Shown piece by piece: positions 3,118 through 24,423 of a stretch of 24,708 nucleotides of DNA. Origin of the DNA: a virus. Every line of letters begins with the position of its first letter. Position 1 is the first letter of the stretch. The stretch is from positions 1 through 24,708 of IMG/VR virus record IMGVR_UViG_3300043410_000777. The stretch is one strand, 5' to 3'. The notes under the pieces are model-generated. The model searched no databases. It had not been told where the DNA came from and saw only the letters and a list, made by a program, of their open reading frames with translations. The position numbers and the translations under genes were made by a program.

Positions 3118-3837
3118 TTACCTAATAAAAGATTGCCTTGGGACAAACCGGACTGGAGCCTTTTCCCGATCCTCCGTAGACGCAAGCTCCCATGCCTCAT
3201 CGTACTGGGCTTTCAGAACAGCTACGCGTTCAGCAGCATTTGGGAGCTTTAGCGCGAGAAGATACGCAAGACCAGCGACCAAAGCTGGGAGAAGGCGGAA
3301 CGGTATGTCCTGTCCGTTGACGCCGTTACCTGCGTCTTGCATTCGGCGCAGTCGCCAGTAGACGAAAGTGTAGGTGGTGCTACTGTCCGGGACCGGCCAG
3401 ACGGTGAAACGGGGGTTTTGCGAGACACCTGCGGACGAGGTTGCGCCCGTACGCCTTTCGATCCAGACTTGGATGGGGCGCCCCGTGGCCGTTTTGTTTG
3501 GGATTTGGGCATAAGTACTCACTGAAATACGGCTAATGTTAATGTCAATCTGGTTCTGACCAGTACCCGTGCGGATGACATGATCAAGCAAATCGACTGT
3601 ATCGTCGGGCAATTCGTACGTAGCGGTGCCGGCGGTCAGGACTTGGCTGCCCTGCTCGATGGTCCACATATTAACGCCACGATTCGCCCAATCAAGCAAC
3701 AATAAGTTTAGGGACCGCCGCGCAGTACGCAAGTCATATCCGGACCGCAGTTCCGCGCCGCACCTCTCGAACGCCTCTTCGACAATATCGTTAAGGTTTA
3801 GGTTGAACGCCGTAGTATCTGTGGTCTTGTAGGCCAT
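3118..3837 (-). CDS. Predicted adaptor/tail-tube connector protein (239 aa)
   Basis: The 239-aa product begins at ATG 3835-3837 with AGAAGG upstream. Residues about 12-60 contain LNDIVEEAFERCGAELRSGYDLRTARRSLNLLLLDWANRG read in pieces, a helical block found in podovirus proteins that sit between portal and tail (gp4/gp11-like adaptors). The middle part is beta-rich and includes RFTVWPVPD. The last 60 residues are helical (LLPALVAGLAYLLALKLPNAAE), with a second DEAWELA block. The protein lies in the same cluster as the SU10-like adaptor. Neck or tail-tube is the likely location. The assignment is by pattern and context, so whether it corresponds to an adaptor or to a tail tubular protein is left open. 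Confidence 0.6.
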   Translation of the reverse strand: MAYKTTDTTAFNLNLNDIVEEAFERCGAELRSGYDLRTARRSLNLLLLDWANRGVNMWTIEQGSQVLTAGTATYELPDDTVDLLDHVIRTGTGQNQIDINISRISVSTYAQIPNKTATGRPIQVWIERRTGATSSAGVSQNPRFTVWPVPDSSTTYTFVYWRLRRMQDAGNGVNGQDIPFRLLPALVAGLAYLLALKLPNAAERVAVLKAQYDEAWELASTEDREKAPVRFVPRQSFIR

Positions 3838-18066: not shown

Positions 18067-18094
18067 TTGACACGCATATGGAAACCGTTATATC
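18067..18094 (+). promoter_or_regulatory. Possible promoter for the MoxR module operon
   Basis: TTGACA (18067-18072), a 16-bp spacer and TATATC (18089-18094, 4/6) would start transcription near 18101. It overlaps the start codon of the 57-aa frame, so that frame would not be translated from this transcript. The next full gene is at 18273. The -35 is perfect, the -10 is moderate, and the spacing is at the short end. Confidence 0.4.
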
Positions 18095-18251
18095 ATTGGC
18101 AATCTTCTACGCAATCGCTGCGATTGCCACGTGGATGCTGGAGCGCAAGAGTAATTCAGGACTGCCGCCCCCGGATCGGTCAGTAAAACGCAACGCTGAA
18201 ATCTTCGACGAGATGGCACGGTACAAGGCGCGACTGCGCCACCAGAAGTAG
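18078..18251 (+). CDS. Small single-pass membrane protein (57 aa)
   Basis: This 57-codon frame (ATG 18078-18080, TAG 18249-18251) encodes METVISLAIFYAIAAIATWM followed by LERKSNSG, a soluble Pro-containing linker and a basic tail (ARYKARLRHQK). Residues 4-20 form one membrane segment, and the Arg/Lys after it suggests that the C-terminus stays in the cytoplasm. The Shine-Dalgarno (AAGGGA) is 12 bases away and weak. No family is known to me. A membrane anchor or superinfection-exclusion-type small protein would fit. The gap it fills (18047-18272) has no other candidate. Confidence 0.5.
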   Translation: METVISLAIFYAIAAIATWMLERKSNSGLPPPDRSVKRNAEIFDEMARYKARLRHQK

Positions 18252-18272: not shown

Positions 18273-19361
18273 GTGCAAACACATGAGCCCCAGTCGGGTA
18301 CGTTCTCGGCTGCCCTACACCTTTACAACAACCTGCAGGACAAGTGGAAGAACACCCTGCCCCTGCGTGGACAGAAGCCCAAGAACCCCGGCGACCCCAA
18401 GCCCGACATCAGGCCCATCGGACGGCGCAGCCGCAAGCACGAGGTGGTCGAGCGGATTGACCTTGAGGACGGGACGTATGCCTATGCCGCTACGCTGTAC
18501 CAGATCCGCTGCGTGATTGCCTACCCGGACGGGACGTTCACGGTAAGCACGGGAGGTTGGGATACCCCATCGACCGCTAAGTTTATTAGTCAGTACACGC
18601 CGTGGCATATAAGCTGCGTCAAGGTATCCAATAACTTGTGGCTGTATGGTAGGGTCTCGGCCAGCGGCAAGCCGCCCATAAAGCACAGGCTGGGGCAGGA
18701 GCCGACACGCTTCTATATAGAGGCAACCGAGGACTACGGTGCGCTGGTATGTCTGGACTCCAAACCCATCAAGGTGGAGCGCGTGGACCGCAAGAAAACC
18801 CGCCCCTACCACGACAAGCTGCGTCCGTTCATGGACTGGATGAGCGCGACCCTTACCATGTCGGATGAGTGGCTGATGCATGAGACACGCAAGGCTGTGC
18901 TAGGGATTCACAGCTACAGCGAGACTAACCCGGACGGCAGCATCACTATTATCCCCAGCGGTCAGTACGCCAACCCGAACCTTTCACCATCTGGCAACAG
19001 CGTGCCACGAGAACTCTACCAATGGGGCAGCGGTGGCTACGGACCCAACAGCATGGCTAGTCGAGTAGCGTTCGAATGGTTCAGCGACCTGCATGAGCGC
19101 GAGGATGACTGGCTATTTGCCTTGTGCATTCTGTCCCTACGGTATCGAGGGTATGACCATGCCGCTGACGTTTCACGGCTGGCCGAGTCGCACACTAGGA
19201 TGGTGAACGGTAGGAACTGGCCGGTTAAGTATTATGACCTGCGACTTAGCTTCAAGGCGCTGAAGCGTTTTGTGTACGAGTTGATTGCCAGCGCACCGGA
19301 CAACGTGAAGATCGTCGAGCGTCAGGCGACGGATCAGTTTCTTAATAACGTAGTCGGCTAA
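18273..19361 (+). CDS. Uncharacterised 362-aa protein upstream of MoxR gene
   Basis: GTG 18273-18275 is used because AAGGAG lies 7 bases upstream; the next in-frame Met is far downstream. The 362-aa protein has a basic N-terminus with Pro-rich PKNPGDPKPDIRPIGRRSRK. A beta-type part follows (HEVVERIDLEDGTYAYAATL, then CVIAYPDGTFTVSTGGWDTP), then a middle region including KAVLGIHSYSE, and a C-terminal helical part (FVYELIASAPDNVKIVERQA). No catalytic triad, membrane segment or metal motif is seen. It is separated from the ATPase by 26 bp and is likely co-transcribed, so it may be a partner or substrate of the MoxR module. Its function is unknown. Confidence 0.65.
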   Translation: MQTHEPQSGTFSAALHLYNNLQDKWKNTLPLRGQKPKNPGDPKPDIRPIGRRSRKHEVVERIDLEDGTYAYAATLYQIRCVIAYPDGTFTVSTGGWDTPSTAKFISQYTPWHISCVKVSNNLWLYGRVSASGKPPIKHRLGQEPTRFYIEATEDYGALVCLDSKPIKVERVDRKKTRPYHDKLRPFMDWMSATLTMSDEWLMHETRKAVLGIHSYSETNPDGSITIIPSGQYANPNLSPSGNSVPRELYQWGSGGYGPNSMASRVAFEWFSDLHEREDDWLFALCILSLRYRGYDHAADVSRLAESHTRMVNGRNWPVKYYDLRLSFKALKRFVYELIASAPDNVKIVERQATDQFLNNVVG

Positions 19362-19387
19362 GCCGACACACAACAGGAGAGTGCAGT

Positions 19388-20464
19388 ATGAGCGTCATCA
19401 ATTTCGGTGGCAGCGTTTCGCTGTCTGAGTTTGCCACGGCTGTCGGCACGGTAGGGCGAGAGGTAACTATCATCGGCGAGGGCGAGCCGGGTATCGGCAA
19501 GTCAGCAACACGCAACGCACTTATGCAATTGTATCCCGAGCATCACCATGCGTACATCGATTGCACGTTGCTTGACCTTGGCGACTTCGCCCTGCCGTAT
19601 ACGGTCGAGGAGAACGGACTCAAGGTTACCCGCTTCGCTCCCAATGCACGGTTCGGGTTCCACATGGGCAAGCCGGTTGTCATCATGCTGGACGAGATCG
19701 GCAAGGCTATGAAGGCTGTCAAGAATGTGCTCTTGACGCTCATGCTGGAGCATCGCATCGGTGACCAGTATCTACCCGAGGGTAGCATTGTGTTCGGCAC
19801 CACTAACCTGCAATCGGATGGTGTCGGCGACTCGCTGGAAGCACACGCCAAGAATCGCATTGCGTTTGTCAAGGTTCGCAAGCCCGACTCCGACTCTTGG
19901 ATCGAGTGGGCCATTAACAACGACGTTGCGCCCGAGATCATCGCATGGGTAAAGCAGTTCCCACATGCACTCGCCAGCTACACCGACCCGAGCCAGTCCG
20001 ACAACCCGTATATCTTCAACCCTCGCAGGGCGGCGCAGACAGCGTTTGTCACGCCACGGTCGCTTGAGAAGGCTAGCCACATTGCCAAGCAGCGAGCATC
20101 ACTTGGCGACAACCTGACCATCAGTCTCTTGACCGGCACCATCGGCGAGTCGGCGGCGCGTGACATGAACGCGTTCTTTACGGTGGTCGATAAGCTGCCC
20201 ACATGGGATGCGGTTATCGCTTCGCCCGAGACTGCCAAGCTGCCCGATAACGACGCGGTGGCTAAGTGCATCATGGTGTATAGCGCAATCACACGGATCG
20301 AGCGTGAGACGCTGGGTAAGTGGATGACCTACCTGCAACGTATGGATAAGGAGTGGCAAGCCCTGTTCGCCACTAGCGTCATGAAGTCCCCGAGCAAGCA
20401 GGTGTTCTGTGTGCTCAACAAGGAGTTCAAGGACTGGGCGCTTGCTAACCAATGGCTGTTCTAA
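19388..20464 (+). CDS. MoxR-family AAA+ ATPase
   Basis: The 358-aa protein starts at ATG 19388-19390 with AGGAG upstream. It has the full AAA+ set: Walker A GEPGIGKS (32-39), a loop with LLDLGDFALPY, Walker B VVIMLDE (97-103, D102/E103), sensor 1 in FGTTN (136-140), and an Arg in EAHAKNRI (R157) in the place of the MoxR arginine finger. The C-terminal 150 residues are helical (lid plus extension). MoxR ATPases are hexameric chaperones that act with VWA-domain partners to mature or load metal cofactors or remodel complexes (RavA/ViaA, CobS/CobT, NorQ/NorD). Its partner here is probably the protein at 21106-22269. Its target in infection is unknown. Confidence 0.85.
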   Translation: MSVINFGGSVSLSEFATAVGTVGREVTIIGEGEPGIGKSATRNALMQLYPEHHHAYIDCTLLDLGDFALPYTVEENGLKVTRFAPNARFGFHMGKPVVIMLDEIGKAMKAVKNVLLTLMLEHRIGDQYLPEGSIVFGTTNLQSDGVGDSLEAHAKNRIAFVKVRKPDSDSWIEWAINNDVAPEIIAWVKQFPHALASYTDPSQSDNPYIFNPRRAAQTAFVTPRSLEKASHIAKQRASLGDNLTISLLTGTIGESAARDMNAFFTVVDKLPTWDAVIASPETAKLPDNDAVAKCIMVYSAITRIERETLGKWMTYLQRMDKEWQALFATSVMKSPSKQVFCVLNKEFKDWALANQWLF

Positions 20465-20475
20465 AGGAGAGCGAC

Positions 20476-20700
20476 ATGGAAGAAACCGTACAGGTCGAAC
20501 GCATCAAGCAGTTGGTGACTATGATTATGGATGCGCTAGTGGAGTTTAACGCTACGCCTACCGAGGGCATGACTGCATTGTCTATGGTGCTTACTTCATC
20601 GGCGGCTATGTTCGGTGTGGATAAGCAAACCACGATGTCGGCGATCAGCAACACCTATGATCAAATGTCCAAGGCTGGATTCAGGGAGAACCTGCAATGA
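20476..20700 (+). CDS. Small protein between ATPase and VWA genes (74 aa)
   Basis: ATG 20476-20478 follows AAGGAG at good distance, 12 bases after the ATPase stop; an alternative Met upstream overlaps the ATPase gene. The 74-aa product is helical (MEETVQVERIKQLVTMIMDA, then LVEFNATPTEGMTALSMVLT, with AAMFGVDKQTTMSAISNTYD). It resembles a small all-helical adaptor but no domain is recognised. Its stop overlaps the next ATG as ATGA. The tight coupling suggests a fixed stoichiometry with the neighbouring proteins, an inference. Confidence 0.7.
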   Translation: MEETVQVERIKQLVTMIMDALVEFNATPTEGMTALSMVLTSSAAMFGVDKQTTMSAISNTYDQMSKAGFRENLQ

Positions 20701-20936
20701 GTAAGTCGATCCTTCAGGTGGGTTACCACCAGCTAATCATGGATACCAACCTAGCTATGACGCTGTTCAAGCTACTTAACCGGGAGCAGATTTACCTGAA
20801 GGACTCGACGTATAAAGTGGACGAGAGTGGCAAGACTGTTGAGATCATCAAGGCTAAGCCCTTCAATCACGAGACGGTTGTACGTGGACTAAACGAGGCC
20901 GACTTCGCCCTTTGGAAAATTGCAGGAGCAGAGTGA
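20697..20936 (+). CDS. Small protein between ATPase and VWA genes (79 aa)
   Basis: The 79-aa gene begins at ATG 20697-20699, sharing four bases with the previous stop, and ends with a TGATG overlap into the next gene. The sequence (MSKSILQVGYHQLIMDTNLA, then LFKLLNREQIYLKDSTYKVD, and EIIKAKPFNHETVV) mixes a helix and short beta strands. There are no catalytic residues or membrane segments. I do not recognise a family. Position and double coupling point to a subunit or regulator of the MoxR/VWA module. Confidence 0.7.
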   Translation: MSKSILQVGYHQLIMDTNLAMTLFKLLNREQIYLKDSTYKVDESGKTVEIIKAKPFNHETVVRGLNEADFALWKIAGAE

Positions 20937-21103
20937 TGCAAGAGCGTTGGGTATTGATCCATTACTTCCCGCACGAGCCGACCCATGTGTACGGGACGTT
21001 CGATTCCGAAACCGAGGCGTGGGAGTACGGACAGCGGCAGGGCTTTGCCGTAGCTGGTGGCGCGTATGAAGCGCAGATGATCCGAGACATCAACGAGGAA
21101 TAA
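20936..21103 (+). CDS. Small protein just before the VWA gene (55 aa)
   Basis: The start is ATG 20936-20938 in a TGATG overlap with the upstream stop and AGGAG 7 bases away. An upstream Met at 20912 would lie inside the other gene. The 55-aa protein (MQERWVLIHYFPHEPTHVYG, then TFDSETEAWEYGQRQGFAVA) looks like a compact alpha/beta unit with Trp, Tyr and His residues. It ends two bases before the VWA/metallopeptidase gene. No known domain is seen. It is too short to be an enzyme on its own. Confidence 0.65.
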   Translation: MQERWVLIHYFPHEPTHVYGTFDSETEAWEYGQRQGFAVAGGAYEAQMIRDINEE

Positions 21104-21105
21104 GT

Positions 21106-22269
21106 ATGAACAAGCTGACCGCTGAACAGCGTGTGCAGAAGGCGCACGTATGGCTGATGAAGAATCCCAAGTACTGCCTGTACTCTGGTGTGTTTATGCT
21201 GGGCCGTGTCGAGGTTGTCGATGACGTACCTACTGCATGCACTAACGGACGCGACGTTAAGTATGGCCGCGCGTTCACCGACAAGCTGACCGATCAGGAG
21301 TTGCGCTTCGTTATCCTGCACGAGAACTTGCACAAGGCGTTCCGTCATCTGGAAACGTGGAAGCATCTTTACAAGAAGAATCCTCGCCTTGCCAACATCG
21401 CGTGCGATTACGTCATCAACCTGATGATCCACGACAGCGATCCAAGCTATGTGGACGTTGCCTTCCCCAAGATCGGCGGCATGCTCGACGAGAAGTTCCG
21501 TGGCATGGACGCTGGTACCGTGTTCCGCATGCTTGAGCAGGAGCAGGAGCAGGATGGTGGTGAAGGTGGCGAGGGTGACGGGGGTGGTGGCTTCGATCAG
21601 CACGACTGGGATGGCGGCGAGGGCATGACCGATGCCGAGAAGGAGACGCTTGCCCGTGACATCGATCAGGCATTGCGTCAGGGTGCGCTGCTGGCTGGCA
21701 AGATGTCTGGCAACGTACCGCGTGAGGTTACCGAGGCGCTGACTCCCAAGGCTGACTGGCGCGAGGCTATGCGTGAGTTCATCAACAGTACGTGTGCCGA
21801 CAAGGAGGAGAGCACGTGGCGTCGCCCGTCACGTCGCTGGATTGGACAGGACGTTTATATGCCTAGCGTTATCGGTGAGCGTGTCGGTCGTGTACTGATT
21901 GCAGCCGATATGTCTGGCTCTATGTGGGACATGCTGCCCCGTGTGCTTGGCGAGTTGAAGGCTATCTGCGAGACGGTTCGCCCCGAGGGTGTTGACCTTG
22001 TGTACTGGGATACCGAGGTGTGTGGTCACGAGGCGTATGACATCGACCAGCTAGATAACATCCTGAGCGTGACTAAGCCGCGAGGCGGTGGCGGCACCGA
22101 TGCATCGTGTGTCCCTAGGTTTATGGCAGACAAGAAGCTTAAGCCTGAGTGCGCTGTGATCCTGACCGATGGTTACGTCGGTGCTTGGGGCGAGTGGCCC
22201 TGCCCGACGCTGTGGGGTATTACAACTAACGTTGTCTCGCCGATTGGCAAGACGATCCAGATTTCTTAA
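21106..22269 (+). CDS. Metallopeptidase-like plus VWA-like protein (DUF2201 type)
   Basis: This 387-aa protein has two recognisable parts. Residues 60-110 hold the HExxH zinc motif HENLH (H72, E73, H76) within VILHENLHKAFRH and a following DYVINLMIHD, the layout of the DUF2201 putative metallopeptidase domain. After a Gly/Glu/Asp-rich linker (about 144-175) the C-terminal part is VWA-like, with an intact-looking MIDAS: D268-M-S270-G-S272, T331 in GGGGTD and D355 in ILTDGYVG. VWA/DUF2201 proteins usually pair with MoxR ATPases. Start ATG 21106-21108 has GAGGAA before it. Peptidase activity is predicted only; the acidic linker is unusual. Confidence 0.85.
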   Translation: MNKLTAEQRVQKAHVWLMKNPKYCLYSGVFMLGRVEVVDDVPTACTNGRDVKYGRAFTDKLTDQELRFVILHENLHKAFRHLETWKHLYKKNPRLANIACDYVINLMIHDSDPSYVDVAFPKIGGMLDEKFRGMDAGTVFRMLEQEQEQDGGEGGEGDGGGGFDQHDWDGGEGMTDAEKETLARDIDQALRQGALLAGKMSGNVPREVTEALTPKADWREAMREFINSTCADKEESTWRRPSRRWIGQDVYMPSVIGERVGRVLIAADMSGSMWDMLPRVLGELKAICETVRPEGVDLVYWDTEVCGHEAYDIDQLDNILSVTKPRGGGGTDASCVPRFMADKKLKPECAVILTDGYVGAWGEWPCPTLWGITTNVVSPIGKTIQIS

Positions 22270-22279
22270 GGAGAACGAC

Positions 22280-23113
22280 ATGATCCAGAACAGTTCAATG
22301 CTGGTTGACCTTAACATTAGCGTGTGGACCGCACGTAAGATGGACAAGCAGGTGTCGCAGGAGATTGACGCTGCCAAGTCTACCCGTACGCAAGCTGGCA
22401 ATTACCACAAGAAGCTGCTGCCCGGTATGGACAAGCTGGATGCGCTTAACAGCGTGGCTAATGCTACCCGCACATGGCACTACGAGAACACGCTCCCGTG
22501 GAGCGACAACGGTACGCGGCTGCTGCCGATGGCTAACTTCTTCGACTACAAGGCTGGGCTGGCTGAGCGTGAGCAGCAGTTCCATTCTTCTGCCGAGGAG
22601 TTCTATGCCGAGTACCCGACGCTCATTAGTGCGGCTGCGCTTAAGCTGGGTGACCTGTTCGACCGCAACGATTACCCGAGCGTTGAGCAGATCCGCAACC
22701 GCAACCGCTTCGTGTATACCTTCATGCCCGTCCCGACTTCTGGTGACTTCCGTGTCGATGCCCCCGAGGCTGCGCAACGTGAACTTCAGGAGCAGTATGA
22801 AAAGTATTACAACAACAAGTTGCAGGATGCTTCGCTCGACCTGTGGACCCGGCTGCATGATTGCTTGAAGCACATGAGCGACAAGCTTGCCGGTGCCGAG
22901 AAGCAGATCTTCCGCGACTCGCTGGTTACCAACACGACTGACCTGTGCGGACTGCTTACCCGCATGAACGTGACCAACGACCCCAAGCTGGAACAGGCGC
23001 GGCAGGAAGTCGAGAAGGCGCTGGTCGGTCTTACTGCCAAGGATCTTCGCAAGAACCCGGACCTGCGTAGCGAAACCAAGAACCGCGTCGATCAAATCCT
23101 CAGCATGTTCTAA
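22280..23113 (+). CDS. Uncharacterised helical phage protein, DUF3150-like (277 aa)
   Basis: ATG 22280-22282 sits behind AAGGAG with a spacing of 7 and follows the VWA gene by 10 bp. The 277-aa protein is mostly helical. The first 30 residues (MLVDLNISVWTARKMDKQVS) are followed by RTWHYENTLPWSDNGTRLLP and AALKLGDLFDRNDYPSVEQI. I recall a comparable layout for DUF3150-type proteins of phages found next to MoxR/VWA genes; this is not verified. A coiled C-terminus (residues about 180-277) could give oligomers. It has no catalytic motif. It is likely a substrate, adaptor or effector of the module. Confidence 0.65.
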   Translation: MIQNSSMLVDLNISVWTARKMDKQVSQEIDAAKSTRTQAGNYHKKLLPGMDKLDALNSVANATRTWHYENTLPWSDNGTRLLPMANFFDYKAGLAEREQQFHSSAEEFYAEYPTLISAAALKLGDLFDRNDYPSVEQIRNRNRFVYTFMPVPTSGDFRVDAPEAAQRELQEQYEKYYNNKLQDASLDLWTRLHDCLKHMSDKLAGAEKQIFRDSLVTNTTDLCGLLTRMNVTNDPKLEQARQEVEKALVGLTAKDLRKNPDLRSETKNRVDQILSMF

Positions 23114-23123
23114 GGAGATACGT

Positions 23124-23564
23124 ATGCAAACCTTCCTACCCTCACCGTCGTTTGCGGAGTCGGCCCGTGTGCTGGACTATCGGCGACTGGGTAAGCAACG
23201 GGTGGAGTGCAAGCAGATACTTGCCGCGCTTGGTAAGACATCAGGCGGTTGGGTTAATCATCCCGCTACAAAGATGTGGCGGGGTTACGAGTGGGCGCTA
23301 GCATCCTATGCGGCTAGCATATGCGACGAGTGGCGTGGCAGGGGGTACAAGGACTCGCTGCTGCCGTACTTCATAGACGTGATGGACAGGCTGGAAGAAG
23401 ATGGTGTGGACCCGCGCGACCCGCGTGTCCTGCCGCCGTGGCTAGGTAATGACGAGGTGCATGCTAGTCATCGCAGCAACCTGCTACGCAAAGACCCTAG
23501 CTTCTACGCTAAGTATAACTGGCAAGAGCCAGCCACATTGGAATACGTGTGGCCTGTTAACTAG
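23124..23564 (+). CDS. Pyrimidine dimer DNA glycosylase-family protein (MSMEG_6728-like)
   Basis: The 146-aa protein begins MQTFLPSPSFAESARVLDYR and continues RRLGKQRVECKQILAAL, which is the recognised start of the MSMEG_6728-like family (Pfam Pyr_excise, the T4 endonuclease V superfamily). Later conserved segments are NHPATKMWRGYEWALASYA and LPPWLGNDEVHASHRSNLLR, followed by KDPSFYAKYNW. Relatives excise UV-induced pyrimidine dimers or similar lesions. The protein is full length. ATG 23124-23126 follows AAGGAG. A catalytic amine cannot be pinned down by eye, so enzymatic activity is inferred from the family. Confidence 0.8.
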   Translation: MQTFLPSPSFAESARVLDYRRLGKQRVECKQILAALGKTSGGWVNHPATKMWRGYEWALASYAASICDEWRGRGYKDSLLPYFIDVMDRLEEDGVDPRDPRVLPPWLGNDEVHASHRSNLLRKDPSFYAKYNWQEPATLEYVWPVN

Positions 23565-23574
23565 GAGAACTTAC

Positions 23575-24423
23575 GTGATCAAGATCGAGCAATCTTCGTT
23601 CGACCGATACAATGTCACGCCTCAGCTAATGGAACTTATCAATCGGCTTGCCCGATCCCATGTCAGTCGGTATCCGATTGAGGCTGTGGTTGGTGATCCT
23701 CGCAGCGTATGGTTCATCGACAGCCGTGCGGAAGGCGTGAACCTTTCCGTTTACCGTTCCATCAAGCATGCTATCTGCCGTGTGACGCTTGGGGCCGGGG
23801 CCGACTCCAACGATAAGTTCCGGGTGTTTAGCTATCGCATCAACAACGAGCGGTACCGTACAGGCACGGACAATTACAATTCGCAGGTAACCAAGTCCGC
23901 TGACAAGGCATTCGATCTTCTGCGTAGCGTTGCGGTTAATGACCCAATCGAAAAGCTGTTTGGTCTTACGTTTCAGGACAAGGAGCAAGCGCACAATAAG
24001 TGGAAGCGCGATGCTGAACAGGACTACCAGAAGAAGCTGATGAACCTTTCGTTTGGTGGGATTGGTATCCCTACGCTGTCGGCACTTATCCGAGAGCGTG
24101 AAGCACGCGGTGATTTCCTCGATGAGACTCTTAACAAGATCACTACTCCCGATATTGTCGAGGCACACCGGGAGTTTCTGAAGCGGCGCAATGCCGCTGG
24201 CCTTGAGACTTGTGTGTACGTAGACCCCGCTACCAACATGTGCGACTGGGCGGTTGCGGATGATATGCCTATCAAACCTGATAAGCTTATGAAGCAATGC
24301 GCTTTCGACGCGCTGCCTGTGCCGACGCAGGAACGTGTAGCCATGCTGCGTATGATGGCTATCAACGAGTACGTTGCCGGGGTTGGATATCGTTCCTCAA
24401 ACCATATATACTGGACGTACTGA
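23575..24423 (+). CDS. Uncharacterised protein (282 aa)
   Basis: A frame extends upstream, but GTG 23575-23577 follows AGGAG and lies 11 bp after the glycosylase gene stop, so it is the probable start (GTG read as Met, then IKIEQSSFDRYNVTPQLM). The protein has an alpha/beta N-terminal half with VWFIDSRAEGVNLSVYRSIK and VFSYRINNERYRTGTDNYNS. A charged helical middle follows (QDKEQAHNKWKRDAEQDYQK). The C-terminal third contains ETCVYVDPATNMCDWAVADD and two Cys. No known fold is recognised. The gene belongs to the operon by spacing. Its function is unknown; it could be an additional component of the MoxR/VWA module. Confidence 0.65.
   Translation: MIKIEQSSFDRYNVTPQLMELINRLARSHVSRYPIEAVVGDPRSVWFIDSRAEGVNLSVYRSIKHAICRVTLGAGADSNDKFRVFSYRINNERYRTGTDNYNSQVTKSADKAFDLLRSVAVNDPIEKLFGLTFQDKEQAHNKWKRDAEQDYQKKLMNLSFGGIGIPTLSALIREREARGDFLDETLNKITTPDIVEAHREFLKRRNAAGLETCVYVDPATNMCDWAVADDMPIKPDKLMKQCAFDALPVPTQERVAMLRMMAINEYVAGVGYRSSNHIYWTY

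Follow-up and report, generated by a model that had tools for sequence, protein, structure and literature searches.

A possible three-part MoxR-type remodelling machine of phages and plasmids that includes a divergent DUF3150 protein

The major finding for the 24,708-base virus record IMGVR_UViG_3300043410_000777, referred to here as the window, was a plus-strand operon that encodes a MoxR-type AAA+ ATPase, a protein with putative metallopeptidase and von Willebrand factor A (VWA) domains, and a divergent member of the DUF3150 family. We infer, tentatively, that these proteins may act together as a three-part remodelling machine of the MoxR type, carried by mobile elements and directed at replication or recombination complexes; both its assembly and its target are deduced, and the reading is considered quite possible. 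The three genes are as follows.

19388-20464, plus strand: MoxR-type AAA+ ATPase of 358 amino acids, like N4 gp24, assigned from PHROG_1297, its structural model and its invariant motifs.
21106-22269, plus strand: predicted metallopeptidase-like (HENLH) and VWA protein of 387 amino acids with a metal-ion-dependent adhesion site (MIDAS), like N4 gp25, with the domain order DUF2201_N-DUF2201, assigned from Pfam and its invariant residues.
22280-23113, plus strand: predicted divergent DUF3150 protein of 277 amino acids with an ATG start at 22280, assigned from orthologue matches, profile-profile comparison and a viral fold match.

The first two had been described in an initial annotation as an intact MoxR-type ATPase and a protein with HENLH plus a full MIDAS-like set, lying in one operon. 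Both open reading frames (ORFs) were present, and the E-values for PHROG and DUF2201 excluded a chance occurrence. The tight gene spacings between 18273 and 24423 agreed with a single operon. The operon was read correctly as far as the pair is concerned, and the classes given to its two proteins were largely right; the third gene, encoding the divergent DUF3150 protein, had been missed. The initial annotation had also named loss of the pair in most close relatives, or key residues that are not conserved, as grounds for doubt; these were looked for, and the pair was found to be kept and the residues to be invariant.

The ATPase matched PHROG_1297 (E = 7e-51) and, weakly, Pfam AAA and AAA_5. Its active-site set consists of Walker A GEPGIGKS (G32, G35, G37 and K38) and Walker B D102-E103, and is completed by the sensor-1 residue N140, the arginine finger R157 and the sensor-2-type R224. 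The positions of all five motifs were invariant in an alignment of 34 ATPases, in which the relatives share 40-79% identity with the window protein. In 15 very distant ATPases, N4 gp24 among them, K38, D102, N140, R157 and R224 were kept throughout; a few Walker A glycines varied, and the Walker B glutamate was replaced by aspartate in two plasmid proteins. The AlphaFold2 model (mean predicted local distance difference test score, pLDDT, 89) displayed a beta-hairpin insertion at residues 68-85 and a short hairpin at 123-128 before sensor 1, both taken from the secondary structure of the model and not from a superposition. Helix-2-insert and pre-sensor-1 hairpins are features of the AAA+ group that holds MoxR. 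The best solved Foldseek matches to the model were NorQ and NorQ-NorD, followed by dynein, CbbQ2 and midasin among others; by sequence profile, midasin came first, and single-protein phmmer gave no useful match to PDB chains. Since PF07726 (AAA_3), the family that tests for MoxR proper, had no match in the window, membership of the MoxR clade was judged by structure. CbbQ_C (PF08406) was likewise without a match in the window ATPase and was present in the ATPase of the IncA plasmid pRA1. No RavA chain was among the profile matches listed or the Foldseek matches shown for the 358-residue protein. Judged by its model, the window ATPase is MoxR-like in the broad clade, outside Pfam AAA_3 and CbbQ_C, and was assigned to no named subfamily.

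For the VWA protein, DUF2201_N (PF13203, putative metallopeptidase) was matched with E = 2e-28 (100.2 bits against a curated cut-off of 23.2) and DUF2201 (PF09967, VWA-like) with E = 1.3e-11 (45.2 bits against 26.4). Residues H72-E73-x-x-H76, D101, the MIDAS residues D268-S270-S272, T331 and D355 were invariant in 44 aligned proteins, and the same residues together with H81 were kept in 15 very distant proteins, a set that included N4, FV3, PA5oct, Phosso, bacterial plasmids and pSYSA. From its sequence, the protein is assigned to the DUF2201 type, having an HExxH domain with putative metal-ligand residues and a full MIDAS set, and neither it nor the ATPase looks like an inactive remnant. The best PHROG match, PHROG_1314 (E = 2e-83), is named "HNH endonuclease", yet Pfam detected no HNH domain in the window VWA protein. 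Many phage records, for instance NC_071039 and NC_055784, call the gp25-like family "HNH endonuclease" or "homing endonuclease"; the HNH name on gp25-like genes looks like a propagated error. In two of the related stretches (L100, 2647-3900, and L165, 1-3900) the VWA gene appeared as two separate ORF matches, as did the AAA and DUF3150 genes of L165, perhaps through frameshifts, assembly errors or decay.

The assignment of the third gene was deduced from several comparisons. Against DUF3150 (PF11348) the window protein on its own gave E = 0.0017 and 18.1 bits, under the curated cut-off of 24.9, and the claim is accordingly limited to homology as a divergent branch. The family was matched by 39 of 45 aligned orthologues, the best at 2e-8. 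Profile-profile alignment with hhalign gave 95.6% (E = 1.1e-8) for canonical DUF3150 and 96.9% (1.3e-10) with plasmid and phage intermediates, compared with 0.2% for the control comparison. A W-x-G/A-R-K-type motif near the N terminus was common to many members of both the window-type and the canonical groups. The AlphaFold2 model (pLDDT 81) consisted of an N-terminal beta element and long helices; a fold search gave nothing below E = 0.001 in the PDB, while in BFVD it returned eight viral proteins only, the best of which is named DUF3150. The 22280-23113 protein is thus predicted to be homologous to DUF3150 as a divergent branch of the family.

The ATPase and VWA proteins have many relatives, found in 513 and 504 GenBank phage records, respectively. 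N4 gp24/gp25 matched the window profiles, and EcP1 gp33/gp34 are annotated as similar to them. A 2009 paper gives N4 gp24 as a putative AAA ATPase and N4 gp25 as vWFA (PMC2784036); both were placed in the N4-like core gene set and called middle transcripts in 2014 (PMC4193335), and both appear in a panproteome table of 2020 (PMC7650795). A two-subunit "MoxR-type metalloprotein chaperonin" is reported for Bacillus phage 0305phi8-36 (PMC2147016), and AAA/VWA pairs are on record for haloviruses (PMC7911831). The N4 and other Schitoviridae proteins resemble those of the window in being homologous AAA+ and DUF2201-type VWA proteins with adjacent genes and the same invariant residues; they differ in that they share only some 24-28% identity with the window proteins and that no DUF3150 was detected beside them. 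In the searched literature, no function was found for the pair in tailed phages, nor was MoxR found for N4-like phages or cyanophages, and no paper named DUF3150. The pair is the N4 gp24/gp25 pair and so already known, and the suggestion of an undescribed system made in the initial annotation holds for the three-part module with DUF3150, which is without description in the literature searched.

The inclusion of DUF3150 in the module was supported by its linkage. Related viral loci were counted if they had both the ATPase and the VWA gene and no less than 4.5 kb of sequence to each side of the latter; DUF3150 was present in 49 of 49, some of these loci being overlapping stretches of one contig. 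The gene order was AAA-VWA-DUF3150 in the closest group, DUF3150-AAA-VWA in a second group (44-46% identity in VWA) and AAA-DUF3150-VWA in Planktothrix phage Pag-Yong1. Pairwise distances of the three proteins correlated at 0.92-0.94 over 56 non-redundant loci, and after removal of the terminase signal the partial r was 0.61-0.84 (19 loci). These data support the joint inheritance of AAA, VWA and DUF3150, with weaker support when the control is a close neighbour.

The same three families were found outside phages. On plasmids of Burkholderia, Rhodovastum and Simplicispira they form a compact AAA-DUF3150-VWA operon, and the record counts per genus agreed for the three proteins in Burkholderia, Paraburkholderia, Cupriavidus, Caballeronia and Variovorax. 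In 33 genome loci, limited to Burkholderiales by the use of one plasmid DUF3150 protein as query, the trio was present in every case where the contig extends far enough; PRTRC genes were often found upstream, and VirB11, VirB4 and TraI downstream in most loci. On a Burkholderia plasmid the module lies between PRTRC and type IV secretion system (T4SS) genes. This plasmid operon is like that of the window in its families, including a DUF2201-type VWA protein, and in its compactness; it differs in its setting on a plasmid with PRTRC and T4SS genes and in its gene order.

Canonical DUF3150 (E below 1e-30) was detected in 8 of 398 sampled Pseudomonadota genomes, and its AAA and VWA partners belong to other subfamilies than those of the phages. 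A CobT-like VWA gene was on the same stretch in all eight and in pRA1, and a CbbQ-like ATPase in seven of the eight and in pRA1. In one genome (G149) the DUF3150 locus is broken across contigs, the ATPase lying beside the N-terminal piece; in another (G022) no ATPase was detected with DUF3150. Bet and Exo accompany canonical DUF3150 in three of the eight genomes and in pRA1. Plasmid pRA1 (CbbQ-like AAA, Bet, Exo, DUF3150, CobT-like VWA) resembles the window in its three protein classes, in a VWA partner with HExxH and MIDAS residues, and in a DUF3150 protein homologous by profile; it differs in the subfamilies of its AAA and VWA proteins and in having Bet and Exo within the module. Taken together, the data suggest that the cobaltochelatase (CobS) names on plasmid ATPases of DUF3150 modules are misleading.

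It could be argued that only the ATPase/VWA pair forms one machine and that DUF3150, as an unrelated neighbour, is carried in the early operon alongside it. N4-like phages, several other phages and plasmid pSYSA have the pair with no DUF3150 that could be detected, which is in keeping with this, and it follows that DUF3150 is not obligatory for the pair. The gene adjoining the VWA gene of CRP-7 (gp16) was suspected to be a DUF3150 gene, and the DUF3150 profile did not match it. However, the linkage is kept across several gene orders, two MoxR/VWA types, and phages, plasmids and genomes, and the protein distances co-vary beyond the terminase signal. Since DUF3150 occurs with two different MoxR/VWA couples, hitch-hiking can hardly explain its presence, and the unrelated-neighbour explanation was judged to be quite unlikely.

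The loci that lack DUF3150 nevertheless weigh against the proposed three-part machine, as do the following observations. When the signal of the linked DNA polymerase was removed in place of that of the terminase, the distance co-variation was weaker (partial r 0.33-0.69, 24 loci). On the Candidatus Manganitrophus plasmid CP114559.1 (L131, 6851-9873) an AAA gene lies together with DUF1257, DUF2997 and DUF3150, and no VWA gene is annotated near the DUF3150 and AAA genes; this locus is possibly a further DUF3150 arrangement. Finally, replication genes are plentiful in phage early regions, so that adjacency to them is weak evidence for a replication target.

With regard to that target, the genes adjoining the module were the source of data. 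In a 64.8-kb relative (G413) the module is followed by genes for a family-A DNA polymerase, a PD-(D/E)XK exonuclease, an SNF2 helicase and a DUF927 primase/helicase-like protein, and the polymerase gene was downstream of the module in 51 of the 59 loci with room for it. Within the Schitoviridae, the N4 pair is near the middle RNA polymerase genes and a dCTP deaminase gene, and the pairs of EcP1 and SBP1 are near DNA helicase and DNA polymerase genes. The gene context favours a role in DNA metabolism over counter-defence or the processing of a phage protein.

The pair could alternatively mature a host or phage metalloenzyme by cofactor insertion, as in CobST or NorQD. This is suggested by the nearest solved structures, NorQ and NorQ-NorD, and by the CobT/CbbQ-like couple that accompanies canonical DUF3150 on plasmids. 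NorQ-NorD and CbbQ-CbbO share with the window the nearest solved ATPase folds and the combination of an ATPase with a VWA partner, whereas the window differs in the missing NorB/COX1 target and CbbQ_C match and in the HExxH domain of its partner. The initial annotation had remarked on the missing cobaltochelatase or NO reductase target, and rightly so: neither CobN nor a member of the COX1/NorB family was matched in the window or in 13 related virus records, and the phages and plasmids examined showed no metalloenzyme gene next to the module. Because CobN and NorB were not found, this explanation was downgraded and is regarded as highly improbable.

A further explanation is that, soon after the DNA enters the cell, the module clears away or disables a host complex directed against phages or plasmids. 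Such counter-defence would explain why the module is common to phages and conjugative plasmids, which are unrelated incoming DNA elements, and in Pag-Yong1 a gene annotated as the anti-CRISPR AcrVA2 (L127, 11048-12088) lies one gene downstream of the VWA gene. Pairs of MoxR and VWA proteins also act as regulatory switches in bacterial conflict systems; the ternary systems with VMAP, iSTAND or FtsH are like the present module in joining a MoxR/VWA couple to a third conserved component, and the window differs in having DUF3150 as that component, in its occurrence on phages and plasmids, and in the lack of an effector domain seen by Pfam (PMC7159879). On the other hand, the neighbours are mostly replication and recombination genes, and the PADLOC protein models, a library that describes defence and not counter-defence, matched none of the window or Burkholderia proteins. 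Counter-defence genes also tend to be patchy, which was counted against this explanation. The pair, by comparison, belongs to the N4-like core gene set (PMC4193335). Counter-defence was thus deemed unlikely.

The remaining features of the operon, which begins at about 18.1 kb, and of its surroundings are listed below.

18067-18096, plus strand: candidate sigma-70-type promoter, TTGACA-18-TATCAT, matching the consensus at 11 of 12 positions.
18273-19361, plus strand: first operon gene, 362 amino acids; its relatives immediately precede the AAA gene in most loci of the clade to which the window belongs.
20452-20700, 20697-20936 and 20936-21103, plus strand: three small ORFs of 82, 79 and 55 amino acids, translationally coupled by overlaps of -13, -4 and -1 nt.
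23124-23564, plus strand: pyrimidine-dimer DNA glycosylase-like protein (Pyr_excise; PF03013, 1.7e-23), in the same operon.
23575-24423, plus strand: conserved downstream gene with a GTG start at 23575, relatives of which follow the module in 38 of the 59 loci with room.

The gene spacings from 18273 to 24423 were +26, -13, -4, -1, +2, +10, +10 and +10 nt, and most starts are preceded by purine-rich sequences of the ribosome-binding type. Promoter-like matches around 18067-18096 were no more numerous than in shuffles, so that the evidence for the promoter is weak. The 362-residue protein had no Pfam, PHROG or PADLOC match. The three small ORFs were dropped as module components because of their poor conservation, only the 79-residue ORF having relatives, in a few loci. 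The Pyr_excise protein was not adopted as a component either; elsewhere in the clade its gene was upstream of the module or was not found in the available stretch. Two matches to the SU10 adaptor family (PF24175) lie close together on the minus strand of the window, at 1749-2405 and 3118-3837. In G413 a 2041-residue virion protein (L196, 10844-16966) was observed whose N-terminal 1000 amino acids weakly match the PHROG of the N4-type virion RNA polymerase (3e-8); this relative otherwise does not look N4-like.

The orientation of the operon bears on a role in virion assembly or maturation, in which the pair would remodel or cut a phage structural protein. Precedent comes from the archaeal virus ATV, the worked-out case found among viruses, where the MoxR ATPase p618 is stimulated by its VWA partner p892 and tail development was proposed (PMC4124505). 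The likeness to the window noted here is that of a virus-encoded MoxR ATPase with a VWA partner; the differences are the tail development of a spindle-shaped virus and the larger proteins. Extra virion genes near the gp24/gp25 homologues of N4-like roseophages (PMC4193335) and the position of the pair beside structural genes in Erwinia phage pEa_SNUABM_12 point the same way. In the window, however, the portal, large terminase and capsid genes are on the minus strand, and the module is in the opposite orientation, in an operon with Pyr_excise. Furthermore, the module precedes the DNA polymerase gene in relatives, N4 gp24/gp25 are middle genes (PMC4193335), and the plasmids that carry the same module have no virion. 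A role in virion assembly therefore appears very unlikely.

For the three-part remodelling machine, the following mechanism is proposed. The AAA+ protein, given its structural similarity to NorQ and CbbQ, would form an ATP-driven hexameric ring. The DUF2201 protein would couple this ring to the substrate through its VWA/MIDAS domain, and its HExxH domain may either cut the substrate or only grip it. The mostly helical DUF3150 protein, tied to the other two by linkage and co-inheritance, may serve as an adaptor or as a dedicated substrate that directs the ring. The target would most likely be a nucleoprotein complex with which the element replicates or recombines its own DNA, and, as gene context suggests, it would be remodelled or cleared during early or middle infection or during plasmid establishment.

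We hypothesize, with a little more caution, that this is a previously unrecognised and widespread machine of phages and conjugative plasmids, in which DUF3150 may confer specificity by bringing the ring to the nucleoprotein complexes in which mobile elements replicate or recombine. If this is true, MoxR chaperones would have a use for which no description was found in the literature searched. The N4-like core pair, with relatives of each protein in more than 500 phage records, would gain a concrete and testable complex through its third partner. The DUF3150 partner, being common to phages, Burkholderiales plasmids and an IncA plasmid, would place that complex in the context of the replication, recombination or establishment of mobile DNA.

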